From contig NZ_KI650979.1 in the NCBI RefSeq assembly GCF_000506985.1, positions 1,426,710 through 1,490,709 of the forward strand: DNA of 64,000 nt, given 5' to 3'. The stretch comes from Advenella kashmirensis W13003 (lineage in GTDB: Bacteria; Pseudomonadota; Gammaproteobacteria; Burkholderiales; Burkholderiaceae_B). Both the position numbers and the translations under genes were made by a program. Of the stretch, positions 36,295-60,428 are shown in pieces; position 1 is the first letter of the stretch; each line of letters opens with the position of its first letter. The notes under the pieces were generated by a model. The model did not search any database. It was not told the DNA's origin and saw only the letters and a list, made by a program, of their open reading frames with translations.

Positions 36295-37368
<1,074 letters not shown>

Positions 37369-42157: not shown

Positions 42158-42341
42158 TCACCTTGCAATGCAGGTGCAGCTCACACCGCCGTTTTGAATT
42201 CTCACAGGTATACCGCTGCCGGCTCCAGTACACAATAAAAACAGGGCCGGCGGCGGATTTCGCCTTTTATTTTTCCGCTTCTGACAATTAGAAAGTTGCA
42301 ACCGCATCTACTTGGTGCGCGCCTGTTTTTATGAAAACAAA

Positions 42342-42353
42342 AATGTATACATT
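42342..42353. promoter_or_regulatory. Probable GntR/FCD-type operator
   Basis: AATGTATACATT is a perfect 12-bp palindrome of the TGTATACA type bound by many FadR-subfamily regulators. It lies 4 bp before the -35 element of the promoter in front of the CoA-transferase gene. A related site, ATTGTAGACAAT, precedes the GntR-type gene at 48110-48799. Confidence 0.6.
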
Positions 42354-42357
42354 ATTG

Positions 42358-42387
42358 TTGACGTTATGTTGGTGCCCTATATATAAT
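42358..42387 (+). promoter_or_regulatory. Sigma-70 promoter for the CoA-transferase/carboxylase operon
   Basis: TTGACG (42358-42363), an 18-bp spacer and TATAAT (42382-42387), 67 bp before the CoA-transferase start codon. The GntR-type palindrome sits immediately upstream. Confidence 0.7.
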
Positions 42388-42454
42388 CAAATCAAAGGCC
42401 AATCCGGACGGGGACAAAGCAGTTGGGGCCGCCACATTCATTGAAAGGGACGAA

Positions 42455-43723
42455 ATGCACAACAGCAACAGTCAGCGTGTAACCGATAACGGTGGAAAAG
42501 GGCCACTGGCGGGTTATCGCGTCATTGAACTCGGCTCCACGGTAGCGGGTCCTTTCTGCGCGCGCCTGTTGGCAGACTTTGGCGCTGAAGTGATCAAGGT
42601 TGAGCAAAAAGAAGGCGATGCCGTACGCTCCATGGGCAGCCACAAGAACGGGCGTTCCCTTTATGGTGCGTCCATTCTGAGAAACAAAAAAAATATATCC
42701 ATTGATCTTCGCCAGAGCAAAGGCCGGGATCTTGTCCGCACCCTGTGTGAGCGGGCCGATATCGTGATTGAAAATTTCAAGCCGGGCAAGCTGGAGCAAT
42801 GGGGGCTGGATTATGACAGTCTGGCGGCGGTAAATCCTGGCCTAATCCTGGTTCGCATCAGCGGATATGGGCAGGACGGACCCTACAGCCGCCGTCCGGG
42901 GTATGGCGTAGTTTGCGAAGCTTTCAGCGGACTGCGTGAAATAACCGGCGACCCTGACAGGGCGCCGGCCCGTGTTGCCGTTTCCGTAACCGATTACATC
43001 ACCGGCTTATATGCCGCCTTCGGTGCGGTCATGGCGGCCATCGACAGGAACCGTACCGGTAAAGGGCAAGTGGTCGATGCGGCACTCTATGAGGCGGCAT
43101 TCAGTTTCATGGAGCCGCATATTCCTGCCTACCAGCAATTGGGCCTGATTGCCACGCGCTGCGGCTCGCGCTTGCCGGGACATACGCCCAATTCGCTCTA
43201 CTCGACGTCCGACGGTCGCTACATTCATATTACCGCCGGTTCACAAAGTATTTATAAGCGTCTGGTTGCAGTAATGGAGCGGGAAGATCTGCTGAGTGAC
43301 CCGCGCTTCGCCGACCCCCAGGGGCGCGCGCAGAATGAAGACCTGATGGATGAAATCGTAGGGGAATGGACGGCGGCGCATGACCTGGAGACACTGGAGA
43401 AAAAACTCGGGCAAGCCGAAGTGCCCGCGTCCAGAATATTCAACATCAAGGATATTTTCGATGATCCGCATTACAGGGCCCGGGACATGATTATTTCTCC
43501 CGAAGATCCGTCGCTTGGCCCGGTCGCTATGGCAAATGTAATACCACGAATGTCCAGGACCCCCGGTTCTGTGCAGTGGCCGGGACGCGACATCGGACAG
43601 GATACCGAAACCGTGCTTTCCCAAGTAGCCGGGCTGAGCCCGGAACAAATCAGTGAACTGTCCGGACTGGACATCATTCACAGTAAAAAAGAGGCGGGCA
43701 GCGCAGGCAGATCAACATCTTAA
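42455..43723 (+). CDS. CaiB/BaiF-family CoA-transferase
   Basis: A 422-residue class III CoA-transferase that would move CoA from a donor thioester to a carboxylic acid. It shows PLAGYRVIELGSTVAGPFCARLLADFGAEVIKVE, SIDLRQSKGRDLVRTLCERADIVIENFKPGKLEQWGLDY and the catalytic Asp180 (SVTDYITG). GTGKGQVVDAALYEAAFSFM is also standard. AAGGGA precedes the ATG. It heads an operon with biotin-dependent carboxylase genes, so its product thioester is probably the carboxylase substrate. Confidence 0.87.
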   Translation: MHNSNSQRVTDNGGKGPLAGYRVIELGSTVAGPFCARLLADFGAEVIKVEQKEGDAVRSMGSHKNGRSLYGASILRNKKNISIDLRQSKGRDLVRTLCERADIVIENFKPGKLEQWGLDYDSLAAVNPGLILVRISGYGQDGPYSRRPGYGVVCEAFSGLREITGDPDRAPARVAVSVTDYITGLYAAFGAVMAAIDRNRTGKGQVVDAALYEAAFSFMEPHIPAYQQLGLIATRCGSRLPGHTPNSLYSTSDGRYIHITAGSQSIYKRLVAVMEREDLLSDPRFADPQGRAQNEDLMDEIVGEWTAAHDLETLEKKLGQAEVPASRIFNIKDIFDDPHYRARDMIISPEDPSLGPVAMANVIPRMSRTPGSVQWPGRDIGQDTETVLSQVAGLSPEQISELSGLDIIHSKKEAGSAGRSTS

Positions 43724-43767
43724 ATTCTGCCCCCAGCCCCGCATGTACATAACAGGAGACGATCAGA

Positions 43768-43989
43768 ATGTCAGAAATTGAAATCAACTCGCCCGTTACA
43801 GGAACAGTGTGGAAAGTGGAACGAGCCGTGGGTGATCAGGTCCGGGAGGGTGATGTCATCATGATTCTGGAATCCATGAAAATGGAAATTCCGGTTGAAG
43901 CGGAAACGAGCGGTACGCTGGAAAGAATAGACGTGGTGCCAGAAGATTCCGTGAACGAGGGCCAACGACTTTGCGTGGTCAAATCATGA
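43768..43989 (+). CDS. Biotin carboxyl carrier protein (stand-alone)
   Basis: A 73-residue biotinyl domain: INSPVTGTVWKVERAVGDQVREGDVIMILESMKMEIPVEAE, with the biotin-accepting Lys38 in ESMKMEI. It is just the bare carrier domain, without the Pro/Ala linker of AccB. A carrier this short is found in some three-subunit acyl-CoA carboxylases. It overlaps the start region of the carboxyltransferase gene. Confidence 0.92.
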   Translation: MSEIEINSPVTGTVWKVERAVGDQVREGDVIMILESMKMEIPVEAETSGTLERIDVVPEDSVNEGQRLCVVKS

Positions 43990-44018
43990 AAAACTCATCG
44001 CCCGTGAAGGAGGAAAAC

Positions 44019-45590
44019 ATGGATGACCGTCAAGATACCGTATTTCCGGAATTGTCGTTTCGCCAGGCTGAGTCTAAAAAAATGGGCGGCCCTGCAGCGA
44101 TTGCGCGTCAACACGAAGCAGGTCGGCTGACCATACGCGAACGTATCGATAAACTGGTCGACCAGGACAGTTTTCGCGAGGTCGGCGCGCTTGCCGGGAC
44201 CGGCAGCTATGACGCCGATAATCGTCTTGTTTCGGTTACACCGGCACCGTATGTCGCGGGATTGGCCAAAATAGACGGTCGGCCGGTCGCGCTGGGGGGT
44301 GAAGACTTTACGGTGCGTGGCGGAACGACTTTTGGAAGTACGCGCAGAAAAGGGGGGCAAGGCGGATTCATCGAAGATCTGGCATTTCATTATCGCATCC
44401 CGCTGGTCAATCTTATCGATGGGGCTGGCGGCAGCGTGACGTCGATTAAAAGACGTGGTCACAGTGTTTTCCCTGGCGTGCACGGCTTTGAGCGCTCGGT
44501 TGAGTTGCTGGGCATGGTGCCGGTCGCCTCGGCCGTCCTTGGAACCGCGGCGGGCGGGCCGGCAGGGCGCGCTATCCTGTCGCATTTTTCAGTGATGGTC
44601 AACAACACCAGTCAGATATTTGCAGCCGGCCCGCCTGTCGTTAAGCGCTCGTTGGGTCAGGTCGTTGAAAAAAATGATCTCGGTGGCACAAAAATAGCAG
44701 TCGATACCGCAGGCACCATCCATAACGCGGCGACTTCGGAGGAGGACGCGATTGGGCAAATCCGCCGTTTTCTGAGCTACATGCCTGCCAATGTGTGGGA
44801 ACTGCCGCCGGTGGAAGAAAGCCTTGATCCGATCGATCGCTGCGATCCTCAACTGGCCACGATTGTGCCGGAAAAACGCACTCAAGCCTACAACATGCAG
44901 CGGCTTGTTCGCATGGTTTGCGACAAGGATTCGTGCTTCGATCTGCAACCGAGCTACGGCAAGTCGGTCATGACGACGCTGGCGCGGCTTGGCGGAAGGC
45001 CGGTCGGCATTATTGCCAATAACCCCATGGTCTACGGCGGCGCAATGGATGTTCATTCTGCCCGAAAACAAATCCATTTCATGGAGCTATGCGACACGTT
45101 TCATATCCCGCTTGTCTTCTTTGTCGATGTGCCCGGCTTTATGGTCGGTTTAAAAGCGGAGCAGGAGGGCACGTTACGGGAAGGAATGCGTGCGGTGTGT
45201 GTAGCCGGAAAATTACGTGTGCCAACTATCACACTTGTGATCAGAAAGTGCTATGGCATGGCAGGAATGGCGACCTGCAATAAAAATGATATTGATCTCA
45301 AGCTCGCCTGGCCTTCTGCCGAATGGGGTTCTTTACCTGTCGAAGGGGGTGTGGCCGCAGCCTTTCGCAAGGATATTATGTCAGCGCCCGATCCCGCCGC
45401 ACGCGAAAGAGAAATTGAAGCGGAACTCAAGCCGTTTGCGAGCCCTTTCAGAACGGCAGAAGCGTTTGCAGTAGAAGATGTCATCGACCCGCGGCAAACC
45501 CGACCCATATTGTGCGAATTCATCGCGCTGGCAGAACAGCGGCTGCGAACAGAAGTAGGCCTTAAGCCTCGATATGGTGTCCAGCCCTGA
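44019..45590 (+). CDS. Acyl-CoA carboxylase carboxyltransferase subunit
   Basis: A 523-residue carboxyltransferase (crotonase-like, PccB/MccB type) that moves CO2 from carboxybiotin to an acyl-CoA. Typical parts are RQHEAGRLTIRERIDKLVDQDSFREVG, GGTFGSTRRKGGQGGFIED-like N-terminal region, GPAGRAILSHFSVMVNN and PLVFFVDVPGFMVGLKAEQEGTLREGMRAV. I choose ATG 44019 because AAGGAGG lies 5 bp upstream; ATG 43986, overlapping the biotin-carrier stop, is a weaker option. The acyl chain specificity is not evident. Confidence 0.88.
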   Translation: MDDRQDTVFPELSFRQAESKKMGGPAAIARQHEAGRLTIRERIDKLVDQDSFREVGALAGTGSYDADNRLVSVTPAPYVAGLAKIDGRPVALGGEDFTVRGGTTFGSTRRKGGQGGFIEDLAFHYRIPLVNLIDGAGGSVTSIKRRGHSVFPGVHGFERSVELLGMVPVASAVLGTAAGGPAGRAILSHFSVMVNNTSQIFAAGPPVVKRSLGQVVEKNDLGGTKIAVDTAGTIHNAATSEEDAIGQIRRFLSYMPANVWELPPVEESLDPIDRCDPQLATIVPEKRTQAYNMQRLVRMVCDKDSCFDLQPSYGKSVMTTLARLGGRPVGIIANNPMVYGGAMDVHSARKQIHFMELCDTFHIPLVFFVDVPGFMVGLKAEQEGTLREGMRAVCVAGKLRVPTITLVIRKCYGMAGMATCNKNDIDLKLAWPSAEWGSLPVEGGVAAAFRKDIMSAPDPAAREREIEAELKPFASPFRTAEAFAVEDVIDPRQTRPILCEFIALAEQRLRTEVGLKPRYGVQP

Positions 45591-45629
45591 TCCTGGCATC
45601 AGCCTGGCTGTAATGATTAAGGATGAAAA

Positions 45630-47000
45630 ATGGTACAGAAAATTCTCATCGCCAATCGGGGAGAAATTGCGTGTCGGATTATCGAGAGTTGCCATCGCAT
45701 GGGGCTTGAGGCCGTGGCGGTTTATTCCGATATCGATCGCCATTCCCGGCATGTGGCACTGGCAGACCAGGCAATTGCAATTGGAGGATCGCACGCACGC
45801 GACAGCTATTTGAAAGTTGAAGCGATCCTGGCGGCTGGCCGCGAAACGGCCGCGACGGCGATTCATCCGGGATATGGATTTTTGTCGGAAAACGCAGCAT
45901 TCGCGCAAGCCGTTTCTGACGCCGGCATGGTATGGATAGGGCCGGCTCCCGCCAACATTATTGATATGGGCGATAAGGAGCGAGCCCGAAAAATCGCCGG
46001 CGAATCAGGCGTTCCGATCCTTCCGGGAAGTGACCGCATAGATGGGCGCGATAATCATGCATTACAGAGCGCCGCCCGGGGCGTGGGGTATCCGCTGCTT
46101 GTCAAAGCCGCCGCAGGCGGGGGCGGCATTGGAATGCGTCAGATCAAGTCTTCACAGGATTTGATACCGACTGTCGAATCGACGCAATCCATGGCGGAAA
46201 AGGCATTTGGTGATGGCGGCGTTTATCTGGAGCGGTTTGTGCCGAGAGCAAAGCATGTTGAAGTCCAGATATTTGGTTTTGGGGACGGAACGGCGATCCA
46301 TTTGCACGACAGGGAGTGCTCTATTCAGCGGCGTTTTCAGAAGATCGTTGAGGAGGCGCCGGCCCCGCATATTTCCCCGACGATAAGGAACCAGTTGCAT
46401 CGCGCTGCCGTGAACCTGGCCCGTGCGCAAAACTACAGCGGGGCCGGTACCGTGGAGTTCATATACGACTGCGATCGTGAACTAGCGTATTTCCTGGAAA
46501 TGAACACGCGCATTCAGGTTGAACATCCCGTGACGGAAATGGTGACTGGTATTGATCTGGTCGAATGGCAGATTCGGCACGCTCTGGGAGGTCTTGGCCG
46601 GATCTCACAGGACAGTATTTCGGTAAAAGGCCACGCGATTGAATGCCGCTTGTATGCAGAGCGACCCGATAAGGGATTTCTGCCGTCTCCGGGCACAATT
46701 ACCCAGCTGAACTGGCCCACTGTGGACGAGCGTTGCCGTATTGATACCGGTGTTCGCCAGGGCGATCAAATCAGCCCCTTCTACGATCCCATGATTGCAA
46801 AGGTGATTGCTTATGGTGAAGATCGCGACAGTGCGATCGCACGCCAGCGGTATGCATTGAATGAACTGGTGATCGATGGCGTCGGGACCAACGCTCGATT
46901 TTTATCCGAATTGATTGCCGACGAGCGCTTTGGCGCGGCCGATACAACCACCGGTTTTATCGATGATTATTTTATGAAAAGAAGTACGGTTTCCGCGTAA
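45630..47000 (+). CDS. Biotin carboxylase subunit
   Basis: A 456-residue AccC-type biotin carboxylase: QKILIANRGEIACRIIESC at the N terminus, the ATP-grasp Gly-rich loop KAAAGGGGIGMRQI, DRECSIQRRFQKIVEEAPAP and EMNTRIQVEHPVTEMVTGIDLVEWQI. It loads CO2 onto the biotin of the small carrier protein with ATP. Ends without a carrier domain, consistent with the separate 73-residue carrier. Third carboxylase gene of the operon. Confidence 0.92.
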   Translation: MVQKILIANRGEIACRIIESCHRMGLEAVAVYSDIDRHSRHVALADQAIAIGGSHARDSYLKVEAILAAGRETAATAIHPGYGFLSENAAFAQAVSDAGMVWIGPAPANIIDMGDKERARKIAGESGVPILPGSDRIDGRDNHALQSAARGVGYPLLVKAAAGGGGIGMRQIKSSQDLIPTVESTQSMAEKAFGDGGVYLERFVPRAKHVEVQIFGFGDGTAIHLHDRECSIQRRFQKIVEEAPAPHISPTIRNQLHRAAVNLARAQNYSGAGTVEFIYDCDRELAYFLEMNTRIQVEHPVTEMVTGIDLVEWQIRHALGGLGRISQDSISVKGHAIECRLYAERPDKGFLPSPGTITQLNWPTVDERCRIDTGVRQGDQISPFYDPMIAKVIAYGEDRDSAIARQRYALNELVIDGVGTNARFLSELIADERFGAADTTTGFIDDYFMKRSTVSA

Positions 47001-49728: not shown

Positions 49729-49777
49729 GTTAACGTTTTCCCTTATTGCATATGTGATACGAGTCATTGTAATTTAA

Positions 49778-49799
49778 TAATTAATTGGTTGTTTAATTA
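49778..49799. promoter_or_regulatory. Operator-like element before the ABC importer operon
   Basis: TAATTAA-N8-TTAATTA, exact inverted arms. AATTAATTGGTTGTTTA (49779-49795) recurs with one change at 54500-54516, before the monooxygenase gene. It lies 60 bp upstream of the binding-protein start codon. A looser relative is at 59236-59257 by the TetR gene, so this is a candidate TetR target. Confidence 0.6.
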
Positions 49800-49858
49800 T
49801 TTATTAGATGCGCCCAAATTGGTCCGCTGTCGCCAGACATTACCGCCGGAGTGTTCAA

Positions 49859-50995
49859 ATGAAATTCATCACGCTATCCATCAGTGGATTGTTGTTTCTC
49901 AACAGTGCGGCGTTCGCTGCACAACCGTCCGGCCCGATCAGGATCGGCGTCATTCAGCCCTTAACCGGATCGGTCGCCTATAACGGTCAGGCTTATGTCA
50001 GAGGCGCCAGGCTCGCGGTCGCGCAACGCAACGCCAGCGGGGGGATTGGCGGACGCCAGGTCGAGCTGCAGATTGAAGACGGACAATGTCAGCCTGCAAA
50101 CTCGGTCAATGCGGCGGAAAAGTTGATCCAGCGAAATAAGGTGCCGGTGCTGGCGGGCGCGTTCTGCAGTTCCGCAACCGCTGCCGTCATGGCCGTAGCC
50201 GAAAAATACAAAATACCGCTTTTGTCGGGTGTGTCTTCGAAGGCAGATCTTACCGAAAAGGGGATGAAGTACTTTTTCCGCTCTGCTGAAACCGATCGTC
50301 TCATGGCCAAAACATTCAGCAAAATTCTCGCCGGGGATCTGAAGCTCAAGACGGTTGCCTACATAGGCGTCAACGACGATTGGGGGCGTGGTGGCGTCGA
50401 GGATTTCGAGAAGTATCTGAATGAACTGGGTGTCAAATCGGTCATGAAGGAATACTTTGATCACGGAACGACCGATTATTACACTCTTTTGACCAAACTG
50501 CGCGCGCTGAATCCGGACGGGGTGTTCGTTGCGGCAGAGACGCAGGACGGCTCCATTCTGGTCAAGCAGCTCAAGGAATTCGGCATCGAAACCAAAGTAT
50601 TCGGCGTTGGGTCATGGGCTACATCCGATTTCATCGGACTGACGGGAGAGGCATCGGAAGGCATCTACGCGGCGGTGCCTTATGTATCCAACATGAAGGG
50701 AGACCGCAATGAGGCGTTCGTCGAGAATTATCAAAAACAATACAAGCAGTTGCCTGGCAAATATGATGCGTCTGGCTATAACTCGATGAATATATTGATG
50801 CAGGCTATCGAGCGCGCGGGCAGTGACCAGCCGGAGAAAATTCGCGACGCTTTGTATAAGACAGATTACGAAGCGCCCAATGGTCATTTTCGCTTTACTG
50901 AAAAGGGTGAAGGATACGGGTTCGACACTGTCCTGGTGCAAATTCAGGGTGGTAAGACAAATGTAATTACCCAGGCACAGACTGACAAGCCCTAG
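49859..50995 (+). CDS. Periplasmic binding protein of branched-chain-type ABC importer
   Basis: A 378-residue LivK-type receptor with signal peptide (MKFITLSISGLLFLNSAAFAAQ) and IRIGVIQPLTGSVAYNGQAYVRGARLAVAQRNASGGIGGRQVELQIEDGQCQP. Such proteins bind amino acids but also many aromatic acids. It opens a five-gene importer directly upstream of pyridine catabolic genes, so a pyridine carboxylate is the likely ligand (inferred). GGAG lies 8 bp before the ATG at 49859. Confidence 0.87.
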   Translation: MKFITLSISGLLFLNSAAFAAQPSGPIRIGVIQPLTGSVAYNGQAYVRGARLAVAQRNASGGIGGRQVELQIEDGQCQPANSVNAAEKLIQRNKVPVLAGAFCSSATAAVMAVAEKYKIPLLSGVSSKADLTEKGMKYFFRSAETDRLMAKTFSKILAGDLKLKTVAYIGVNDDWGRGGVEDFEKYLNELGVKSVMKEYFDHGTTDYYTLLTKLRALNPDGVFVAAETQDGSILVKQLKEFGIETKVFGVGSWATSDFIGLTGEASEGIYAAVPYVSNMKGDRNEAFVENYQKQYKQLPGKYDASGYNSMNILMQAIERAGSDQPEKIRDALYKTDYEAPNGHFRFTEKGEGYGFDTVLVQIQGGKTNVITQAQTDKP

Positions 50996-51024
50996 TGCTG
51001 CCAGCCAAGGAAAAGGGGACCGAT

Positions 51025-51897
51025 ATGGAATTGTTACCGCAGTATGTTGCAAATGGCTTGGTGATCGGATCGTTCTATGCGTTGTCCGCGCTGGGCCTGA
51101 CACTGATCCTCGGCTTGATGCGCGTCGTCAATTTTGCCCATGGCGAGCTGTACATGATGGGTGGCGTAATGGGCTGGTGGGCGACAACACGGCTCGGCCT
51201 GGATTTTTTCTCCGGACTGTTGCTGGTTGCGGTTGTGCTGGGTCTGTTCGGCTGGCTGATTGATCGCTTTCTGATTGAACGCATTCGTGACCAGGGAGAG
51301 GAGCCAGGCATCCTGCTGACGATCGGATTGTCCATTTTTCTGGCCAATACGGCACTCTTGCTGGTCGGCACTGCGCCATTGAAAATCGTGTCTCCCCTGG
51401 CGGGCGGACCGATATTTCTCGGGCCGGTCGTGTTGACAAAGGCGCGTTTATTTGCAGTTGCAGTCAGTATTGTATTGATGATTGCTACATACCTGGTGAT
51501 TCAGAGAACGCGGCTCGGTCGGGCGATGCGAGCAACATTTCAGGATCCGATGGCCGCCAAATTGGTGGGCATCAAAACCGCCAATATATATGCGGGCACC
51601 TTTGCCATGGGCACGGTCATTGCCTCCCTGGCCGGCATGCTGCTGGGTTCCATTTATTCGACGCAGGTTTCCATCGGAGGCCTGGTCAGCATGAAGGCCT
51701 TTGTCGTGGTGATTCTTGGCGGTATGGGCAGCTTTGCGGGTGCCATTGTCGGCGGCCTCCTGCTTGGCCTGGCCGAGGCGTTATGGGGCGGTTATGTCGC
51801 GACGGGCTGGGTGGATATCATCGGATTCGTTTTGGTGATTCTGACCCTATTGTTCCGTCCTTATGGCCTATTTGCAAAACGTGCGGAGAGAGCATGA
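51025..51897 (+). CDS. LivH-type ABC importer permease
   Basis: A 290-residue permease, MELLPQYVANGLVIGSFYALSALGLTLILGLMRVVNFAHGELYMMGG..., with about eight helices and the family loop GGMGSFAGAIVGGLLLGLAEALWGGY. AGGGGACC precedes ATG 51025. Its stop overlaps the LivM-type start (ATGA). Confidence 0.9.
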   Translation: MELLPQYVANGLVIGSFYALSALGLTLILGLMRVVNFAHGELYMMGGVMGWWATTRLGLDFFSGLLLVAVVLGLFGWLIDRFLIERIRDQGEEPGILLTIGLSIFLANTALLLVGTAPLKIVSPLAGGPIFLGPVVLTKARLFAVAVSIVLMIATYLVIQRTRLGRAMRATFQDPMAAKLVGIKTANIYAGTFAMGTVIASLAGMLLGSIYSTQVSIGGLVSMKAFVVVILGGMGSFAGAIVGGLLLGLAEALWGGYVATGWVDIIGFVLVILTLLFRPYGLFAKRAERA

Positions 51898-52892
51898 ACA
51901 TTCAACGAAATTGTCTGGCCGGCTTCATGCTGCTGGCCGCGGTCCTGCCGTTTTTCGTCAATGACCAGTATATTTTGCATGTTGCAATCATCGTCATGTT
52001 TTACGCGGTGCTGGCGACCAGTCTGAATCTTGTCGTTGGCTATGTCGGCGAGTTTTCTTTAGGTCATACCGCGTTTTTGGGAACGGGCGCATATGCTGCC
52101 GCCCTGTTGTCCACCCAGGCGGGGTGGCCGATGTGGGCGACCGTGCCGGCTGCCGGACTGTGCGCGGCAGTCATGGGCACCTTTATTGGCGCTATTACAT
52201 TGCGACTGCATGGTCCGTTCTTTGTCATCATCACGCTGTCGTTCTCGGAGGTGCTGCGTCTGATTGCCAATAATTGGGTGGCCGTGACCAAAGGACCGAT
52301 GGGAATTGCCGGTGTGCCCCAGCCGGATTTACTATCGGGCATGAGCAATCTGGCAGGCAAGCACTTTTACTATGGCATTGCTTGGACTTTGCTTGCGATT
52401 GCGCTTTATCTGGCATATCGGTTCGTGAACTCGAATGCCGGACGGGCGGCTGTAGCGGTCCGTGAAAACCGGTACGTGGCGCAATCCATAGGCATTCGTC
52501 CGCTTAATTATTCCATGATGGCACTAGTGCTAGGCGCATTCCTGAGCGGCATGGCCGGCGGATTCTATGCGCATTACATTTCATTCGTCGGGCCTGAAAT
52601 GTTCCGGTTTGCATTCATGGTCACCATGATCACCATGGTACTCATCGGCGGCAAAGGCACACTCATCGGTCCCCTGGTAGGTGCTCTGCTGGTTACTTTT
52701 CTTGAAGAGTATCTGCGCGAGGCGCAGGAATTGCGCTTGTCATTATTTGGCCTGATCGTCATTGCCATAGTACTCTTCCTTCCCAAAGGCATTATGGGGT
52801 TCGTAACGAGCCGCCGGGAGAAGTATGAGAAAAAAAACGGCACAACTTCCGTGAGCATGCCGGTCCCGGGGACCAAAAGGAGATCAGCATGA
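51894..52892 (+). CDS. LivM-type ABC importer permease
   Basis: A 332-residue permease: YAVLATSLNLVVGYVGEFSLGHTAFLGTGAYAAALL, TKGPMGIAGVPQPDLL and VTMITMVLIGGKGTLIGPLVGALLVTFLEEYL. The C-terminal tail (TSRREKYEKKNG onward) is polar. Start at ATG 51894 inside the LivH stop; upstream open frame belongs to LivH sequence in another frame. Overlaps LivG as well (ATGA). Confidence 0.9.
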   Translation: MNIQRNCLAGFMLLAAVLPFFVNDQYILHVAIIVMFYAVLATSLNLVVGYVGEFSLGHTAFLGTGAYAAALLSTQAGWPMWATVPAAGLCAAVMGTFIGAITLRLHGPFFVIITLSFSEVLRLIANNWVAVTKGPMGIAGVPQPDLLSGMSNLAGKHFYYGIAWTLLAIALYLAYRFVNSNAGRAAVAVRENRYVAQSIGIRPLNYSMMALVLGAFLSGMAGGFYAHYISFVGPEMFRFAFMVTMITMVLIGGKGTLIGPLVGALLVTFLEEYLREAQELRLSLFGLIVIAIVLFLPKGIMGFVTSRREKYEKKNGTTSVSMPVPGTKRRSA

Positions 52893-53698
52893 TAAATAAT
52901 GTTGTGCACGAGCAGCCGCCGGGCGGCGCGCTGCAGGTCAGCGGGCTGAGCAAATCGTTTGGCGGGATCCACGCCGTGAAGGATATTAGCTTTAGCGTGC
53001 AGCAAGGGGAAATTGTTGGATTGATTGGCCCGAACGGCGCAGGAAAAACCACGTGTTTCAACCTGATCACCGGATTTTATGCGCCCACGGCCGGCACTGT
53101 TCATTTCGACCAGCAGGACGTCACAGGTGACAAGCCTTATGGCATGGCGCGCCGCGGTATCGTGCGCAGTTTTCAGAAAACCAATATCCTGAAATCGCTG
53201 TCGGTTTTTGAAAATGTATTGACAGGGCACTATATCGAGGCACGCCAACCGGTATGGAAGACTTTTTTCCCGACGGCGCAGGTCCGACGGACAGAGGCGA
53301 GCGTGCGGGATAGCGCAGCCCGGATCATCCATACCATCGGTTTGTCCCGGCATATGAATACGCCGGCAAGCCAGCTTTCTTGCGGTGAATTGCGTTTGCT
53401 GGAGGTCGCGCTGGCACTGGCTGCCAAGCCAAGAATACTGATGCTTGATGAACCGGCTGCGGGCCTCAACAGTCATGAAGCCAGACTATTTGGCGAGGTA
53501 TTGAGAAAGCTGGTAGGCGATCTGGTCGAGTCAATTCTGATCGTTGAACATAATATGGGACTGATCATGAGTGTTTCGGATCGGGTCGTCGTGATGCATT
53601 TCGGTGAAAAACTGGCTGAAGGCACACCCGCTCAAGTGCAAAAAGATCTCAAAGTGGTCGAGGCTTATTTGGGCGGCAGCGCAAAGGAAAAATCATGA
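52889..53698 (+). CDS. LivG-type ABC importer ATPase
   Basis: A 269-residue ATPase with Walker A GPNGAGKTT at residues 47-55, LSCGELRLLEVALALAAKPRILMLDEPAAGLN (signature LSCGE, in place of the usual LSGGQ/E; Walker B follows) and ILIVEHNMGLIMSVSDRVVVMHFG. Overlaps both neighbours by 4 bp. Confidence 0.92.
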   Translation: MINNVVHEQPPGGALQVSGLSKSFGGIHAVKDISFSVQQGEIVGLIGPNGAGKTTCFNLITGFYAPTAGTVHFDQQDVTGDKPYGMARRGIVRSFQKTNILKSLSVFENVLTGHYIEARQPVWKTFFPTAQVRRTEASVRDSAARIIHTIGLSRHMNTPASQLSCGELRLLEVALALAAKPRILMLDEPAAGLNSHEARLFGEVLRKLVGDLVESILIVEHNMGLIMSVSDRVVVMHFGEKLAEGTPAQVQKDLKVVEAYLGGSAKEKS

Positions 53699-54462
53699 AT
53701 GCAATCATGTCGCCGTCAGTCATGCCGGCGCAAAGCTCGTCCGGACAACACATTGCCATGCTGGAAATTCAGGATTTGCATGTCAGCTATGGCAAGACGC
53801 AGGCGCTGCACGGGATCAATCTGACTGTGCGAAAAGGAGAGGTTGTTGCGCTTATCGGGGCAAATGGGGCGGGAAAGAGCACGACATTGCGCGCGATTTC
53901 CGGTCTGCTCAAGCCGACAGCGGGACAAATTCTTTACCAGGGAAACAATATTGCAGGCGTTGCTGCCGATCGCATTGTTGCGCAGGGGATTGCTCAATCG
54001 CCTGAAGAGCGTCACATTTGGCCCACCATGACGGTTTACGAAAATCTGACGCTGGGCGCATATCTGTGCAAGAAAAATGCGGAGGTGGAAAATCGCGTGG
54101 CCGTAGTCTATCACCGGTTTCCGCGCTTGAAGGAACGGCATCGCCAATTGGCGGGCACACTGAGCGGCGGCGAACAGCAGATGCTGGCTATAGGCCGTGC
54201 GCTGATGTCAGAGCCTTCATTGTTATTGCTTGACGAACCGAGTCTGGGGCTGAGCCCTCGCATGGCCGAAGAGGTTTTTGAGTTTGTTCGGGAAATCAAT
54301 GCGCACGGCGTCACGGTTGTCCTGGTCGAGCAGAATGTTTATAACGCGCTGTCGGTATCGTCGCGTGCATATGTATATGAAACCGGGAAAGTGGTCGCGG
54401 AAAAAGAGGCTGCCGGTTTGCTGGATGATCCGGAACTGCTGAACGCTTATCTTGGGGCATAG
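53695..54462 (+). CDS. LivF-type ABC importer ATPase
   Basis: A 255-residue ATPase with Walker A GANGAGKST at residues 55-63, LSGGEQQMLAIGRALMSEPSLLLLDEPSLGLSP and VLVEQNVYNALSVSSRAYVYETG. It carries an extra polar N terminus of about 21 residues before the usual MLEIQDLHVSYG; ATG 53758 could be the true start. Last gene of the importer; the monooxygenase begins about 110 bp later from its own promoter region. Confidence 0.9.
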   Translation: MNAIMSPSVMPAQSSSGQHIAMLEIQDLHVSYGKTQALHGINLTVRKGEVVALIGANGAGKSTTLRAISGLLKPTAGQILYQGNNIAGVAADRIVAQGIAQSPEERHIWPTMTVYENLTLGAYLCKKNAEVENRVAVVYHRFPRLKERHRQLAGTLSGGEQQMLAIGRALMSEPSLLLLDEPSLGLSPRMAEEVFEFVREINAHGVTVVLVEQNVYNALSVSSRAYVYETGKVVAEKEAAGLLDDPELLNAYLGA

Positions 54463-54499
54463 GGACCGCCCGGGCGTGTTGTTGACGCAAACAACACAA

Positions 54500-54516
54500 A
54501 ATTAATTAGTTGTTTA
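54500..54516. promoter_or_regulatory. Operator-like element before the monooxygenase-nicDXF operon
   Basis: AATTAATTAGTTGTTTA differs at one base from 49779-49795, which stands in front of the importer operon. TTGACG (54482-54487) lies just upstream. It is 54 bp before the monooxygenase start codon, a normal operator position. Confidence 0.6.
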
Positions 54517-54569
54517 TTTAATAAATTATGTATGCGTGTGCATCCATGATTGGAACAGGAGAGAAAGTA

Positions 54570-55799
54570 ATGTCGAAATCCACAAAAGTCGGAATCGTGG
54601 GGGGCGGGATTGGCGGGGCGGCCTTGGCACGGGCATTGCAGCGACAAGGTATCGATGCCTATGTGTTTGAGCGGGCGCCGGCGTTTGGAGAAATCGGAGC
54701 AGGCGTTCAGATGACGCCCAATGCAGTGAAAGTGTTAAGAGGATTGGGTCTGGAAGCCGACCTGGAGCGTATCGGTTTTTTGCCCCAGGCCATGGTGGGA
54801 AGAAACTGGAACGATGCGCGCGAAGTGTTTCGCACGCCGCTGCAACAAATGTGTCGTGACAATTTCGGGGCAGATTTTCACCATGTGCATCGTGCCGATT
54901 TGCATGCCATTCTGTGCAAGGACATTCCGGCGGAACGGGTAAGGTTCAATACCGTTTGCACCGGCGTGACCCAAAATACCGATTCAGCGACGGTGCATTT
55001 CGAAGATGGTTCGACCTTCGAGGCAGACATTATTGTCGGCGCCGACGGTATTCATTCGGCTGTACGCGACGCGCTCTGGGGAAAAGATAAGCCCAGCTTC
55101 ACTGGCCATATGTGCTGGCGCGCCCTGGTGCCGGTCCAGCAGCATCCGCTGCCTTTCGTCAGCCCCGACGCGTCATTCTGGTTTGGACCCAAGGCACACA
55201 TTGTGACGTATTACGTCAAGGGCGGCGCAGCCGTCAACATCGTAGCGGTGAACGAAAGCGAAGAGTGGGTCGCCGAATCCTGGACCGAGCCCAGCAGCCG
55301 CGAGGAACTGCTGGCGGCCTACCGCGGCTGGCACCAGAACATTATTGACTTGCTTGAGCAGACTGATCCGGAACAGACATTCAAGTGGGGGTTGTTTGAT
55401 CGCGATCCTATGAAGCAATGGGCCAAAGATCGCGTCACGCTCCTTGGAGATGCGGCGCACCCCATGCTGCCGTTTCTTTCGCAGGGTGCGGCCATGGCGC
55501 TTGAAGACGCCTTTGTGTTGGCTGAAATGATCGCGTATTTTCCGAATGATTACCAGTCGGCGCTGCGTTGCTACGAGGCCGAACGGCTTCCGCGTACATC
55601 CCGCGTCCAGCTCGAAGCGCGCGAGCGCGGCCGTACTTACCACTTGTCTACGCCCGAGGAACAACGGGCCAGGGACGAGGCGCTTAAAAGGCAGCAGGCG
55701 GAAAACCCCAACGCAGTTGGCATCAAGGCAGAATGGGTTTACGAGTATGACGCGACACATTGCAAAGAGAGGATCGTTGTCGACGAGGCGGTGGGATAA
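54570..55799 (+). CDS. FAD-dependent monooxygenase, probably acting on a hydroxypyridine carboxylate
   Basis: A 409-residue class A flavoprotein monooxygenase (salicylate-hydroxylase type). FAD-binding GGGIGG at residues 10-15, GADGIHSAVR in the middle and GDAAHPMLPFLSQGAAMALEDA near residue 300 are present. AGGAG lies 9 bp before ATG 54570. Followed by nicD-, nicX- and nicF-like genes, its product should be 2,5-dihydroxypyridine. That fits a decarboxylating hydroxylation of 6-hydroxynicotinate (as NicC does) or of 5-hydroxypicolinate; sequence alone does not decide. It is longer than Pseudomonas NicC as I recall it, by about 27 residues at the C terminus. Confidence 0.78.
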   Translation: MSKSTKVGIVGGGIGGAALARALQRQGIDAYVFERAPAFGEIGAGVQMTPNAVKVLRGLGLEADLERIGFLPQAMVGRNWNDAREVFRTPLQQMCRDNFGADFHHVHRADLHAILCKDIPAERVRFNTVCTGVTQNTDSATVHFEDGSTFEADIIVGADGIHSAVRDALWGKDKPSFTGHMCWRALVPVQQHPLPFVSPDASFWFGPKAHIVTYYVKGGAAVNIVAVNESEEWVAESWTEPSSREELLAAYRGWHQNIIDLLEQTDPEQTFKWGLFDRDPMKQWAKDRVTLLGDAAHPMLPFLSQGAAMALEDAFVLAEMIAYFPNDYQSALRCYEAERLPRTSRVQLEARERGRTYHLSTPEEQRARDEALKRQQAENPNAVGIKAEWVYEYDATHCKERIVVDEAVG

Positions 55800-55920
55800 A
55801 TAATTGCCATCGCCATAGCCGCACTGTTGCACAGGTACCCGTAGCTGGGCGTCACGGGACGTGCCAGCCTATGACAAATGCGATTTGACGTCAGCAGGAA
55901 AAAATCAGGGAACGAGCATT

Positions 55921-56751
55921 ATGAAGAGTACATTCCAATATGGAGCCAATGTTTTCGCCAATGGTATCCGCCAGCACTATTTGCGTTTTGGTGGCCAAAC
56001 CGGCGATCTGGCCACGCGCGACGCGGTCATTGTGATTCCGGGCATTACCAGTCCCGTGGAAACCTGGCGTTTCGTCGCCGAACGCCTGGGCCGTTACTTC
56101 GACACGTATGTGCTTGATGCGCGTGGCCGCGGGTTGAGCCAGGCAACGGACGATCTTGATTACAGCCTGGATGCGATGGCGAGCGATGTCATTGCGTTTG
56201 CCGCCAAGACTGGCTTGCAGACATACTCAATTGTGGGCCATTCGATGGGGGGCCGGATCGGCTTACGGGTGGCAGGCCGACGCCCTGTTGGCCTGGCTCG
56301 CCTTGTTGCGGTTGACCCTCCGGTATCGGGACCGGGCCGGCGTCCGTATCCTGCAAAGCTTGGGTGGTACGTGGACTCCATCAGACAGGCACAACGGGGC
56401 ATGACCGTCGAGCAAATGCGCGAATACTGCCCGACCTGGACAGAGGAGCAGCTCAGGCTGCGTGCGCAATGGCTGCATACTTGTAATGAGCGCGCGATCA
56501 CGGAAAGCTTCCATGCTTTCCAGACAGACGACATTCATGCCGATGCCGGGCAGATTGATATTCCGGTTCTGCTGATGGCCGCGGACAGAGGAGATGTCAT
56601 TCGTGATTCCGATGCAGAGGAACTGCGGCAGCTCATACCTGCAATGCAATTTGTACGGGTTGCGGATGCGGGCCACATGATTCCCTGGGATAACGAGGCG
56701 GGATTCTATCGCGCCTTTGGTGATTTTCTGGGACATCCTCTGGCAGATTAA
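55921..56751 (+). CDS. nicD: N-formylmaleamate deformylase
   Basis: A 276-residue alpha/beta hydrolase that removes formate from N-formylmaleamate to give maleamate. The catalytic triad is visible: Ser108 (GHSMGG), Asp132 (VDPPVSGPGRRPYP) and His252 (DAGHMIPWD). The N terminus ANGIRQHYLRFGG and VDSIRQAQRGMTVEQMREYCPTW match NicD of Pseudomonas putida as I remember it, with the triad shifted uniformly by seven residues. Start ATG 55921; the 120 bp before it hold no gene. Sits between the monooxygenase and nicX, the expected pathway set. Confidence 0.88.
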   Translation: MKSTFQYGANVFANGIRQHYLRFGGQTGDLATRDAVIVIPGITSPVETWRFVAERLGRYFDTYVLDARGRGLSQATDDLDYSLDAMASDVIAFAAKTGLQTYSIVGHSMGGRIGLRVAGRRPVGLARLVAVDPPVSGPGRRPYPAKLGWYVDSIRQAQRGMTVEQMREYCPTWTEEQLRLRAQWLHTCNERAITESFHAFQTDDIHADAGQIDIPVLLMAADRGDVIRDSDAEELRQLIPAMQFVRVADAGHMIPWDNEAGFYRAFGDFLGHPLAD

Positions 56752-56785
56752 TGATGTGTTTTAACAAACAGGTACAGGAGCTATT

Positions 56786-57847
56786 ATGGCTGTTCGAGAT
56801 ACTGATCTGATTCAGGCATGGATCAACGTCCTGAATCTATCGAAATTAAAAAAAGGGGACGCGGTCACCGTGCTGACCAGCGACCACACCCATCCGCAGA
56901 CATTGCGCTGCGCTGTCACGGCTGCGACAATGCTGGGCGCTATCGTCAGCCGTCTTGACCTGCCGCCGGTGAACGCGGAAAAATCATTGAGCCGTGATCC
57001 GCTAGCCTATCTGGGTACGACTCCGCTGACCGGCAATTTGCCGGCAATCGCAGCCTTGAAAGCCAGCGATTTGATTCTGGACCTGATGACCCTGCTTTTT
57101 TCCCCGGAGCAACACGAGATACTGCAGGCGGGCGGTAAAATCCTGCTTGCGGTCGAGCCGCCGGAAGTACTGTTGCGCCTCGAACCGACACGCGAAGATT
57201 ATGTGCGCACGCAGGCGGCAGCAGCTTTGCTTAAACAGGCGAAACAAATGAGAATTACGTCAGCGTCCGGTACTGATCTGTACTGTCCATTGGGCGAATA
57301 TCCCTGCGTTTCAGAGTATGGCTTTGTGGATGAGCCAGGACGCTGGGATCATTGGCCTAGCGGGTTCACCTTCACCTGGCCTAACGAGGGACAGTCCAGA
57401 GGCACCATTGTTTTGACAAAAGGCGATGTTCTGCTGCCCATGAAAACGTATGTCGGCGAGCCTATTGTGTTGACAGTGGAAAACGGCTTTGTTTCCGACA
57501 TCAAGGGGGGAGTCGAAGCGGATATGTTGACGGAATATATCGAATCGTTTGCCGATCCTGAGGCTTATGCTATATCGCATATCGGCTGGGGATTGCAGAA
57601 GCGCGCCTATTGGTCCACGCTTGGCCTGTACGACCGGGAGGCAACAATCGGGATGGACGCGCGAGCTGTTAGCGGGAATTTCCTGTTCTCACTCGGACCG
57701 AACAATGAAGCCGGGGGCAGCCGGACAACCGCATGTCATATTGATGTGCCCATGCGCAGCTGCGATGTATATCTGGACGAGCTGCAGGTTGTTGCGAAAG
57801 GCAAAGTGATCGAGTCTACCCTGGTCAGACAGGAGGCGATGTCGTGA
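56786..57847 (+). CDS. nicX: 2,5-dihydroxypyridine 5,6-dioxygenase
   Basis: A 353-residue ring-cleaving enzyme that opens 2,5-dihydroxypyridine to N-formylmaleamate using Fe(II). The family belongs to the aminopeptidase-T-like fold. Expected metal ligands fall at His265 (AISHIGWGL), His318 and Asp320 (ACHIDVP), the numbers I recall for Pseudomonas NicX. Other matching blocks: SPEQHEILQAGGKILLAVEPPEVL, FVDEPGRWDHWPSGFTFTWPNE and MDARAVSGNFLFSLGPNNEAGG. ACAGGAG precedes the ATG. This gene is the clearest marker that the cluster degrades a pyridine. Confidence 0.92.
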   Translation: MAVRDTDLIQAWINVLNLSKLKKGDAVTVLTSDHTHPQTLRCAVTAATMLGAIVSRLDLPPVNAEKSLSRDPLAYLGTTPLTGNLPAIAALKASDLILDLMTLLFSPEQHEILQAGGKILLAVEPPEVLLRLEPTREDYVRTQAAAALLKQAKQMRITSASGTDLYCPLGEYPCVSEYGFVDEPGRWDHWPSGFTFTWPNEGQSRGTIVLTKGDVLLPMKTYVGEPIVLTVENGFVSDIKGGVEADMLTEYIESFADPEAYAISHIGWGLQKRAYWSTLGLYDREATIGMDARAVSGNFLFSLGPNNEAGGSRTTACHIDVPMRSCDVYLDELQVVAKGKVIESTLVRQEAMS

Positions 57848-58464
57848 ACGAGGAGGTGTATGCGAGGCAGGGATTCGGCGCGGACATGGCCGTTGCGCCG
57901 CCGTTCGGCTTGTTGATAGTCGATTTTGTAAATGGCTTTGCCGACCCCGGCATTTTTGGCGGAGGCAATATTCCCGACGCGATCGCGGCTACACAGGGAC
58001 TTTTACAGGAGGCGCGGCGGCGTTGCTGGCCGGTTGCACATAGTCGGATTGTATTTGCAGACGATGATGCCGACCAGAATATTTTCAGCCGGAAAGTGCC
58101 GGGTATGCTGACACTGAAGGAGGACAGCCTCGCTAGCGCAATTGTACCTGAACTCAAACCGGCGGCAGGTGAACTGGTGATACGCAAGACCGTACCTTCC
58201 GCGTTTTTCGGAACGACACTGGCGGCCTGGCTGACTCAAAGGGGTGTGAGCACGTTGCTGGTGGCTGGATGTGTGACCAGCGGCTGTGTGCGCGCGAGTG
58301 TGGTCGACGCCATGTCGCTTGGGTTTACTCCACTGGTGGTAACCGATTGTGTTGGTGACCGGGCAAGCGGGCCGCACGAGGCCAGTCTCTTTGACATGCA
58401 ACAAAAGTATGCCATGGTGATGAGCTGCGAATCCGCATTGGGTGCTTGCGCCATGGCTGGCTGA
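57844..58464 (+). CDS. nicF: Maleamate amidohydrolase
   Basis: A 206-residue isochorismatase-family hydrolase converting maleamate to maleate and ammonia. Triad: Asp27 (IVDFVNGFADP), Lys115 (IRKTVPSAFFGT) and Cys148 (AGCVTSGCVRAS). The N terminus VYARQGFG and the VNGFADP motif are typical of NicF. GTG start overlaps the nicX stop; AGGAGG lies 7 bp upstream. Maleate isomerase (NicE), needed to reach fumarate, is not in the window. Confidence 0.88.
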   Translation: MNEEVYARQGFGADMAVAPPFGLLIVDFVNGFADPGIFGGGNIPDAIAATQGLLQEARRRCWPVAHSRIVFADDDADQNIFSRKVPGMLTLKEDSLASAIVPELKPAAGELVIRKTVPSAFFGTTLAAWLTQRGVSTLLVAGCVTSGCVRASVVDAMSLGFTPLVVTDCVGDRASGPHEASLFDMQQKYAMVMSCESALGACAMAG

Positions 58465-58545
58465 CCATCGCGGGGTGCAGCAAACGGTACTGCTGTCAAC
58501 GTCCGGGTGTCCTGATACTTGCCGCGCGGCAAGCGGCTCGCGATA

Positions 58546-59238
58546 TTATTCCGCCTTCAATCCACCGACCATAAAGCGGGTGACCTGATTAATCAGCTCT
58601 TCTGTGTCGTCGACATCGTACAGGCCTTTGGGCGCCATTTCGTCCATCCTGTGACTGTCCGAAAATGCATAGAGGTAGGTGCCGATCATGAATGTCACCC
58701 GCCAGCACGCGTCCAGTTCGTTGAGTTTGGGCAGCGCCTTGCGCAATACGGCGACATATCGCTGGGTGGAGCCGCCATACGCTTCCGAGCGTAGAGAGTA
58801 GGAAATCTCAGAAGGTTCGGTGTGCAAGCGCGCCTGCAGTCTGAGAAAGGCGCGCCCCTGGAACGTTGCGCGCAAAGAGAGAACCGGTTCCAGAAAAGAT
58901 CTCACAATTTCGCTGACTTTGGGTGCCGCTTGTGTTTCCAGCGCTTTCAGTGCTTCCAGGCGTTCTTGGGAAACCAACTCGCTTCTGCGTAAAAAGACCG
59001 CTTGAAAAAGACCGAATTTCGAGCCGAAATAATAACTGATCAATGCCTGCGTGACATTGGCCTGTTCGGCTATTTCTCTTAAAGGCGTGCCAGCGTATCC
59101 CTTGTCTGAGAAAATGACTTCAGCAGCGTCCAGTATCTCGTCACGTACGACGCTCGCTCCTTCGGGTCGACCGGGGCCGTTTACTTTACGAGACCGCCGC
59201 GATGGTGTTTTCTTCTGGTGCTGGGCTGGTTTTGTCAT
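58546..59238 (-). CDS. TetR-family regulator of the pyridine catabolic cluster
   Basis: A 230-residue TetR protein with a basic N-terminal tail (KKTPSRRSRKVNGPGRPEG) and the DNA-binding part at about residues 30-78 (VRDEILDAAEVIFSDKGYAGTPLREIAEQANVTQALISYYFGSKFGLF). Its C-terminal domain belongs to the RutR/CerR-like kind. It converges on nicF. In Pseudomonas and Bordetella the nic regulators are MarR-type (NicR/BpsR), so a TetR protein here is a different control. It may bind the shared AT-rich element at 49778 and 54500. Confidence 0.82.
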   Translation of the reverse strand: MTKPAQHQKKTPSRRSRKVNGPGRPEGASVVRDEILDAAEVIFSDKGYAGTPLREIAEQANVTQALISYYFGSKFGLFQAVFLRRSELVSQERLEALKALETQAAPKVSEIVRSFLEPVLSLRATFQGRAFLRLQARLHTEPSEISYSLRSEAYGGSTQRYVAVLRKALPKLNELDACWRVTFMIGTYLYAFSDSHRMDEMAPKGLYDVDDTEELINQVTRFMVGGLKAE

Positions 59239-59257
59239 AATTGATCGATTAATTAAA
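59236..59257. promoter_or_regulatory. Possible TetR autoregulatory site
   Basis: An AT-rich, imperfectly palindromic stretch (ATAATTGATCGATTAATT and following) over the start of the TetR gene. It shares the AATTAAT half with the elements at 49779 and 54500 but not the GTTGTTTA half, so the match is loose. Confidence 0.35.
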
Positions 59258-59603
59258 TATTTGCAAGTTCATCGCCGTGGCAATTTTCAACAGATTGATG
59301 ATTCTATGCACCATAAAATATCATAAATTCATTGATCGTGAATACAAATGCGCTCAAAGCGTGCGAGACGCATGCCACTAGTTGCTTCGCCGATACAACG
59401 CTGTTCCCGAAATTCTGCTGGCGGTGCTGCCAAATGACGGGGCTGTCAGTGGCAGCTTCGAAAATTGCGGCTGATCCAGGCGATTGCCGGGTAGAATGAT
59501 TATCACGTTTGCGATTGTTGAAACTGTACTCCGTTGTTTAGCGACATGCGGGCTAAAATGATTCGAGCGTTATTTTGATTACCGAAAAGATAAGGAAACA
59601 GGA
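59258..59603. other. Gene-free stretch between the TetR and SDR genes
   Basis: About 350 bp with no coding sequence I can support. Apart from the AT-rich site at its left end I see only promoter-like AT-rich stretches; the region before the SDR start carries AAGGAAACAGGA as its ribosome site. Confidence 0.5.
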
Positions 59604-60428
59604 ATGGATTTGGCAATAGCAGGTAAATGGGCCCTGGTGTGTGGCGCAAGCAAGGGACTGGGTTTCGGTTGCGCCAAGGCGCTGGTCGATAACGGCGTGA
59701 ATGTGGTGATCAACGCCAGACGCCCCGAAGTGCTTGATGAGGCGGCCAAACTATTGATTGACGTTGCCGGTGCAGCCGCGCAACGAGACGGATTTGCTGC
59801 AGCAAAAGTTATTGCTATTGCCTGTGATATCACCACGGTGGAGGGGCGCGAGGCTGTTTTCAGCGCTGACGGCGGACCGGGAAAAAATTTCGACATCGTG
59901 GTGACCAACGCCGGTGGCCCTCCACCCGGCGATTTTCGTGACTGGGATCGCGATGCATGGATCAAGGCAGTCGATGGCAATATGTTGACGCCTATTGAAC
60001 TGATTAAAGCCACCGTTGACGGAATGGCCGGGCGTGGTTTTGGTCGCATCATCAATATTACATCCAGCGCGGTCAAGGCGCCCATCGATATTCTTGGACT
60101 GTCCAATGGCGCACGCTCCGGGCTGACCGGATTTGTAGCCGGTTTGGCGCGTTCGGGTATCGCGGCCAAAGGCGTCACTGTCAATAACATCCTGCCTGGG
60201 AAATTTGCAACTGATCGCCTGGAAGGGAATATGAAAGTGGCTGCTGAAAAATCCGGCAAAGATATGGATACGGTCAGGCAGGCGCAGCAGGCTGTGGTGC
60301 CCGCCAAACGCTTTGGACACCCTGACGAATTCGGCGCACTTTGCGCATTTCTCTGCGGTCAGCACGCCGGCTATATAACGGGCCAGAATCTGCTGATCGA
60401 CGGCGGCATGTACACGGGTACTTTCTGA
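59604..60428 (+). CDS. Atypical SDR-family oxidoreductase
   Basis: A 274-residue short-chain dehydrogenase/reductase fold: cofactor loop GASKGLG at residues 14-20, VVTNAGGPPPG (NAG motif) and a C-terminal GQNLLIDGGMYTGTF. The catalytic YxxxK pair is missing: where YAAAK is expected the sequence reads SNGAR (in INITSSAVKAPIDILGLSNGARSGLTGF). The preceding Ser (ITSS) is present. This kind of substitution is seen in a subgroup of SDRs; its catalysis is unclear. It precedes a Bug gene by 258 bp on the same strand, with the large palindrome between them. Confidence 0.78.
   Translation: MDLAIAGKWALVCGASKGLGFGCAKALVDNGVNVVINARRPEVLDEAAKLLIDVAGAAAQRDGFAAAKVIAIACDITTVEGREAVFSADGGPGKNFDIVVTNAGGPPPGDFRDWDRDAWIKAVDGNMLTPIELIKATVDGMAGRGFGRIINITSSAVKAPIDILGLSNGARSGLTGFVAGLARSGIAAKGVTVNNILPGKFATDRLEGNMKVAAEKSGKDMDTVRQAQQAVVPAKRFGHPDEFGALCAFLCGQHAGYITGQNLLIDGGMYTGTF

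Follow-up and report, generated by a model that had tools for sequence, protein, structure and literature searches.

A TetR-associated gene cluster of Advenella kashmirensis proposed to degrade a hydroxypyridine carboxylate through 2,5-dihydroxypyridine

We examined a compact set of genes in a 64,000-nucleotide stretch of the Advenella kashmirensis W13003 genome (the window; positions 1426710-1490709 of contig NZ_KI650979.1, called C1 below, in a genome of 4.85 Mb). With slightly better than even confidence, we read the cluster at window positions 49859-59238 as a TetR-repressed catabolic unit that would import a hydroxypyridine monocarboxylate, most likely 5-hydroxypicolinate, and subject it to decarboxylative hydroxylation. 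A Liv-type ABC importer would take up the already hydroxylated acid, and the group A flavin monooxygenase of the cluster (MO), an FAD enzyme, would place a hydroxyl group on the carbon that carries the carboxyl group, releasing CO2 and giving 2,5-dihydroxypyridine (DHP). NicX would then open the DHP ring, NicD would release formate and NicF ammonia, and the resulting maleate could be converted to fumarate by an isomerase encoded about 90 kb away, in a second cluster that resembles the pic genes of picolinate degradation. Bound to three operators (at the importer genes, the MO gene and its own gene), the TetR protein would repress the importer, MO and itself, and the imported acid or its product would keep it off these sites, after the model of HSP and the regulator NicR2.

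Gene content and the lower pathway

All ten genes that a preliminary description of this DNA had grouped into a compact importer, monooxygenase, nic and regulator cluster were confirmed. The plus strand carries a periplasmic substrate-binding protein of the Liv type (SBP; Peripla_BP_6; 49859..50995), LivH-like and LivM-like permeases (51025..51897 and 51894..52892) and LivG-like and LivF-like ATPases (52889..53698 and 53695..54462). On the same strand follow MO, the proposed decarboxylative hydroxylase yielding DHP (54570..55799), a NicD-type N-formylmaleamate deformylase (55921..56751), a NicX-type DHP 5,6-dioxygenase (56786..57847) and a NicF-type maleamate amidase with a GTG start (57844..58464). 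The TetR gene (TetR_N and TetR_C_30 domains, kin of NicR) lies on the minus strand at 58546..59238.

A search of genome contigs with MO gave 111 confirmed relatives, the best 80 of which were kept as loci; the closest named ones belong to Advenella species (86-87% identity). The stretches around MO exceed 19 kb in 56 of these loci and are shorter in the others, and counts by locus refer to them throughout. NicX is found in 63 of the 80 loci, NicD and NicF in 60 each, and all three in 58; a TetR gene is present in 55, a maleate isomerase gene in 49, and the Liv SBP with both permeases in 31. The SBP, the permeases, the three Nic enzymes and TetR surround MO together in 26 loci, and 20 hold the complete set with the isomerase as well, most commonly in the full order SBP-livHMGF-MO-isomerase-NicD-NicX-NicF-TetR. 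Since the whole Liv/Nic/TetR set recurs in 26 of the 80 loci and the trio NicD, NicX and NicF in 58, the arrangement is beyond chance.

The route from DHP through N-formylmaleamate and maleamate to maleate, as previously proposed, appears well supported by structural matches and retained residues. NicX matches the solved DHP 5,6-dioxygenase 7cn3 (E = 4e-121), NicD the entry 4l0c, named 'Deformylase' (E = 8e-89), and NicF the entry 3ot4/3uao, named 'Putative isochorismatase' (E = 2e-89), which we take to be the maleamate amidase NicF. The iron ligands of NicX (H265, S302, H318 and D320) and its substrate residues E177 and H189 are present in the window copy and in 62/62 relatives from MO loci, and R293 is present too. 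The Ser/Asp/His triad that we assume for NicD is present in the window and in 60/60 copies from MO loci. The Asp/Lys/Cys triad assumed for NicF is likewise present in the window; among 65 rows, Asp is found in all and Lys and Cys in 60. The five rows that deviate may represent other hydrolases, since five loci hold two members of this protein-family cluster. The earlier statement that these enzymes have all expected catalytic residues is thus right for ligands and triads but needs a footnote for NicX position 105, which is Phe in the window and in 62/62 NicX proteins of MO loci and His in Pseudomonas putida. According to one study, NicX H105A is dead and H105F is still active (PMC7910607).

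No maleate isomerase was found in the window's cluster, as had been noted. However, the source genome has a copy at C1:1392231-1392971, about 90 kb off in the pic-like cluster. It is 59% identical to the isomerase of relative L013, from which the family was identified (439 bits against 4fq7), and a more distant isomerase-like copy (28%) lies elsewhere in the genome. The lack of this gene is not the novelty it had been taken for: of the 58 loci holding NicD, NicX and NicF, 46 have the isomerase within the stretch around MO, and it is missing, as in the window, from the three Advenella relatives and from 9 other loci.

The monooxygenase and its substrate

The tree of MO with NicC that the preliminary description had called for separates the two enzymes. 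In 76 rows, MO (55 rows thinned from 101) and NicC (14 rows) form separate single clades at 100/100; the wider placement is uncertain because of long outgroup branches. We took H47, C202, H211, Y215, Y225 and H302 to be the active-site set of NicC. These positions read H, C, H, Y, Y, H in 14/14 NicC rows and Q, S/A/T, H, Y, N, F/Y in 101/101 MO rows (which include some genes reached twice by two tools), so that MO departs at four of the six. Judged by its distinct active-site set and separate clade, MO is not NicC, to which its clade is about 34-40% identical.

Nevertheless, MO might be a second kind of 6-hydroxynicotinate 3-monooxygenase and the cluster a pathway for nicotinate or 6-hydroxynicotinate. 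The type of reaction and the product would match, the solved proteins closest to MO include NicC (34-35% identity), and a substitute could be useful to the source genome, where a NicC search matched only MO (39%) and a paralogue (33%). We regard this explanation as quite improbable, given the four altered positions and the separate clades. Moreover, a NicC-like protein (54-86% identity) accompanies MO in 24 of 37 MO-bearing genome entries, or 21 of 34 without duplicates; the entries were hand-chosen and comprise 30 of the 80 loci, six family genomes and the source genome, with three genomes present twice. The 12 best NicC-like matches were placed in the tree, and the active-site set is unchecked in the lower ones (54-68%). 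A full NicB was not found in the source genome either, where a NicB-like query from Advenella incenata matched the cytochrome part only; with neither NicC nor full NicB, the canonical nicotinate route appears to be absent there. Finally, molybdenum hydroxylase genes lie near MO in only 4 of the 80 loci (L002, L003, L027 and L078), using subunits from the window and the pic-like cluster as queries; NicAB was not a query, and the pic-like small subunit detects NicA of the A. incenata nic cluster (L142). This count disregards L015 and L023, where the large subunit matched weakly, and L038 and L043, where only a cytochrome matched. Of the two substrates suggested earlier, 6-hydroxynicotinate is therefore unlikely, given that the active-site set of NicC is absent from MO and that the two enzymes coexist in many genomes, and 5-hydroxypicolinate is the one we infer.

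The 33% paralogue is a 3-hydroxybenzoate 6-hydroxylase-like gene (L089, C1:117000-134000). It adjoins a likely gentisate dioxygenase gene and later genes of what reads as a gentisate pathway.

Three considerations favor 5-hydroxypicolinate. Its carboxyl group is para to the hydroxyl group, an arrangement shared with 6-hydroxynicotinate. The 5-hydroxypicolinate monooxygenase HpoO is named among decarboxylating flavin enzymes in PMC6692525, and the predicted reaction and family of MO would be the same. Lastly, Alcaligenes faecalis JQ135 is called a degrader of 5-hydroxypicolinic and nicotinic acids in PMC6460240, and an Alcaligenes genome (L072/G261, not JQ135 itself) has MO beside a separate NicC, which lends weak support. 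The predicted structure of MO (pLDDT 90) has as neighbors the tropone monooxygenase TrlE, NicC, 3-hydroxybenzoate 6-hydroxylase and the decarboxylative hydroxylases of vanillate and 4-hydroxybenzoate. Similarly, the nearest solved relatives include the decarboxylating NicC, vanillate 1-hydroxylase and 4-hydroxybenzoate 1-hydroxylase, in company with tropone 2-monooxygenase and 3-hydroxybenzoate 6-hydroxylase. Salicylate hydroxylases are not the nearest kin: MO scores 211 bits with TIGR03219 (cut-off 446), and the solved enzymes rank below NicC and tropone monooxygenase. An HspB type was likewise rejected, an HSP hydroxylase being only 16-17% identical to NicC (PMC4108407).

The transport genes suggest that the imported substrate is an acid, because importer families swap among the relatives while MO and the lower enzymes stay. 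Near MO we found a second Liv-type set, TRAP, dipeptide-type ABC, NMT1-type ABC, MFS and BenE-like genes. BenE, MFS, TRAP and NMT1 transport families serve mostly acids and other polar solutes. The unrelated importer families, and the lack of an upper hydroxylase in the operator regulon of the source genome, agree with the earlier idea of an already hydroxylated, imported pyridine carboxylate.

Several observations weigh against 5-hydroxypicolinate or against decarboxylation. The paper cited for JQ135 is titled, in the reference list of PMC6460240, for picolinic and not 5-hydroxypicolinic acid, which is what makes that support weak; the phrase may be a slip. Sixteen of the 80 loci have no NicD, NicX or NicF in their stretch (some stretches being short), so DHP as the product is unproven for the whole clade. 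In addition, MO has Q47, H211, Y215 and N225 in common with the 3-hydroxybenzoate 6-hydroxylase-like protein of the source genome. Since that protein is of a non-decarboxylating type, MO could instead be a plain para-hydroxylase that turns 3-hydroxypyridine, or a related neutral pyridine, into DHP. The top NCBIfam model for MO, 3-hydroxybenzoate 6-monooxygenase, points the same way, although its 334 bits fall below the cut-off of 459. We think this unlikely, since uptake of a neutral pyridine would scarcely call for a Liv-type ABC importer, or for the BenE-, MFS-, TRAP- and NMT1-type transport genes of the relatives.

Oxygenases beside MO in some relatives also count against the proposed substrate. 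A Rieske oxygenase gene is near MO in 16 of the 80 loci and, with its reductase, directly upstream of MO in 15; in Pseudomonas and others this pair precedes MO under the same kind of operator. Its nearest kin in the PDB are SxtT, SxtDIOX and the N-demethylase NdmA. In Rhizobiales loci and Salipiger, luciferase-like monooxygenases akin to YtnJ and nitrilotriacetate monooxygenase (NtaA) are found instead. Judging from these neighbors, upper steps exist in some hosts. The substrate could then be another hydroxylated pyridine acid, for example one derived from a pyridine dicarboxylate or further substituted, with 5-hydroxypicolinate as one option; the Rieske pair with its operator and the YtnJ/NtaA-like enzymes of Rhizobiales would fit such a compound, whereas a PicC-like decarboxylase was not found in any of the 80 loci. 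We give this broader alternative a small chance and retain 5-hydroxypicolinate as the preferred substrate.

Operator sites and the TetR regulator

An AT-rich 25-bp dyad accompanies the cluster, with two window matches at up to 3 mismatches against 0 in 100 shuffles. Operator O1 (49777..49801; core at C1:1476487) lies upstream of the importer genes and O3 (59237..59261) between tetR and a divergent SDR gene, and both are kept in the Advenella loci L001-L003. A weaker dyad with 3 mismatches, O2 (54503..54524; C1:1481212-1481233), lies between the importer genes and MO and has a counterpart at the same position ahead of MO in L001-L007. A promoter-like match overlaps O1 and is no evidence by itself. 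As O3 overlaps the first bases of the tetR reading frame, the true start of that gene may be further in. The SDR gene (59604-60428) shares the intergenic region holding O3, and an SDR-like gene occupies the same place in L001-L003.

The 22-bp core, TAATTAATYGNNYRATTAATTA, occurs at up to 3 mismatches in three separate places of the 4.85-Mb genome, all within the cluster: before the importer, before MO and at tetR. Of 12 further, hand-chosen genomes searched at up to 2 mismatches, 7 had matches, every one within 5 kb of MO, and 5 had none; the loci of these five (L016, L019, L044, L060 and L072) have sites at 3 mismatches. Among the 80 loci, 49 carry 93 sites, all intergenic and at most 350 bp ahead of the start of a gene, although the consensus was picked from dyads of the same loci, so this count is not blind and the whole-genome searches are the fairer test. 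The downstream genes encode SBP, MO, TetR, the Rieske oxygenase, a second substrate-binding protein (SBP2), NicX, the isomerase and the first member of an ABC set. Eight sites precede an unnamed Azospirillum gene for a 129-residue protein (L046:3594-3983 and kin). This protein has no Pfam match, and in six Azospirillum loci the operator is centered about 30 bp upstream of its gene.

Sites occur in 46 of the 55 loci with a TetR gene and in 3 of the 25 without (Fisher p = 1e-9, uncorrected for relatedness), and in two of these three the contig ends just after MO. Nine TetR loci have no site at 3 mismatches, and five have none at 4. No site was found in the four loci where another regulator replaces TetR (L014, L015, L017 and L064); the one scanned, that of L017, is of the AraC type. 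Markov-shuffled loci gave 0 sites and five permuted patterns 0, 0, 0, 1 and 2. Less favorable was the reversed pattern, with 49 sites. As the motif reads almost the same when mirrored, 41 of these fall no more than 15 bp from a real site; the other 8 lie elsewhere. In the source genome the reversed pattern had 5+2 matches against 4+2 for the pattern itself, and in the 12 further genomes 7+5 against 13+7.

The best solved relative of the TetR protein is the PDB entry NicR (E = 2.5e-26), and we infer that this TetR binds the operator sites. Its kind had been presented as a novelty, TetR in place of MarR, but the TetR repressor NicR2 of P. putida S16 is already described as controlling the same lower pathway in PMC6550519. 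The NicR2 operators given there are CTATATGTACAGCCATATAA and TTATACCGTCGTACATATAA; compared by eye only, the shared site of our cluster resembles TAATTAATYGNNYRATTAATTA and is unlike the NicR2-type CTATATGTACAGCCATATAA. The same text reports that HSP stops free NicR2 from binding DNA, whereas bound NicR2 is not stripped by HSP in vitro. An inducer of the present TetR should be the substrate or product, so an O1 reporter could name the compound for many bacteria.

Related pathways and neighboring genes

A close parallel in layout is the distal nic2 cluster of P. putida S16, whose order hspB, iso, nfo, hpo, ami (PMC3812094) equals the commonest full order around MO: a flavin monooxygenase precedes isomerase, deformylase, DHP dioxygenase and amidase, and a TetR repressor is involved (PMC6550519). 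The systems differ in operators and in the monooxygenase, since the HSP hydroxylase of Agrobacterium tumefaciens S33 is 62% identical to HspB and far from NicC (PMC4108407), whereas MO is closer to NicC; the contrast is drawn via the S33 enzyme and not HspB itself. The nic cluster for nicotinate (NicC, NicAB, NicX, NicD and NicF) has the same lower steps and monooxygenase product, but MO has a distinct clade and active site, and TetR and the ABC importer belong to the present cluster. A. incenata has both a nic cluster (L142) and an MO cluster (L003), at different places.

The second DHP cluster of the source genome lies at C1:1372000-1393000 (L087 and L088; stretches C1:1366000-1400000). Besides the maleate isomerase, it encodes a second NicD (64%), NicX (71%) and NicF (66%), a TRAP transporter, an amidohydrolase that we read as PicC, Rieske oxygenase subunits with a reductase, a three-gene molybdenum hydroxylase and a MarR regulator. 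PicB is presumably a Rieske system. We call the cluster pic-like because its gene content resembles the genes picA1A2A3, picB1B2B3B4 and those for PicC, PicD, PicE, PicF and PicG described in PMC10142695, the MarR type of PicR being taken from its reference list. By gene content, then, the picolinate route of the source genome is covered by this cluster. In A. faecalis JQ135 and Bordetella bronchiseptica RB50, the pic cluster shares the lower steps with ours (PMC10142695), but it reaches DHP through the dehydrogenase PicA, the oxygenase PicB and the decarboxylase PicC and has the MarR-type PicR.

The pathway, a TetR repressor for it (NicR2) and the order monooxygenase, isomerase, deformylase, dioxygenase, amidase (PMC3812094) were thus already known. 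What is new, as far as the searched literature goes, is an MO clade that has a distinct active site, the spread of this clade, and an operator differing from that of NicR2; no paper on the operon or operator was found among those listed from the open-licence PMC literature, which gives no proof of absence. More tentatively, and with rather less than even confidence, we suggest that the MO clade, TetR and operator form a regulon across alpha-, beta- and gammaproteobacteria for one pyridine acid, neither nicotinate nor picolinate, into which hosts feed different precursors via swapped Rieske or luciferase-type oxygenases and importers. If so, the turnover of pyridines would include a node that has been overlooked, namely the common metabolite of this regulon. 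MO relatives also occur in Bacillota. Among the plasmid records listed, members exceeding 54% identity (H1-H17) bear no more specific name than FAD-dependent monooxygenase or oxidoreductase, or lack a listed gene, and separating the MO clade from NicC helps to avoid wrong calls of nicotinate degradation.

The preliminary description saw no molybdenum hydroxylase next to the operon, which is true of the operon itself, but the window has a three-gene set at 37535-42157. It stands within 34360-47000, where a TRAP transporter, the hydroxylase (large, [2Fe-2S] and cytochrome c subunits) and then CoA-transferase and carboxylase genes are found. In L002 and L003 the set lies directly upstream of the cluster, whereas in the window about 6.8 kb with other genes separates its cytochrome gene from a RibD-like gene; this stretch was either inserted in the window or lost in L002 and L003. 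As an upper enzyme the hydroxylase was rejected: the whole-genome search placed no operator nearby, and in Advenella L001 (L146) the set was not found in the roughly 14 kb that precede the cluster. A creatininase-family search of the source genome gave no match. In the Alcaligenes locus L072, an MPAB/rubber-oxygenase-like protein (L072:10232-11107) is encoded between MO and TetR.

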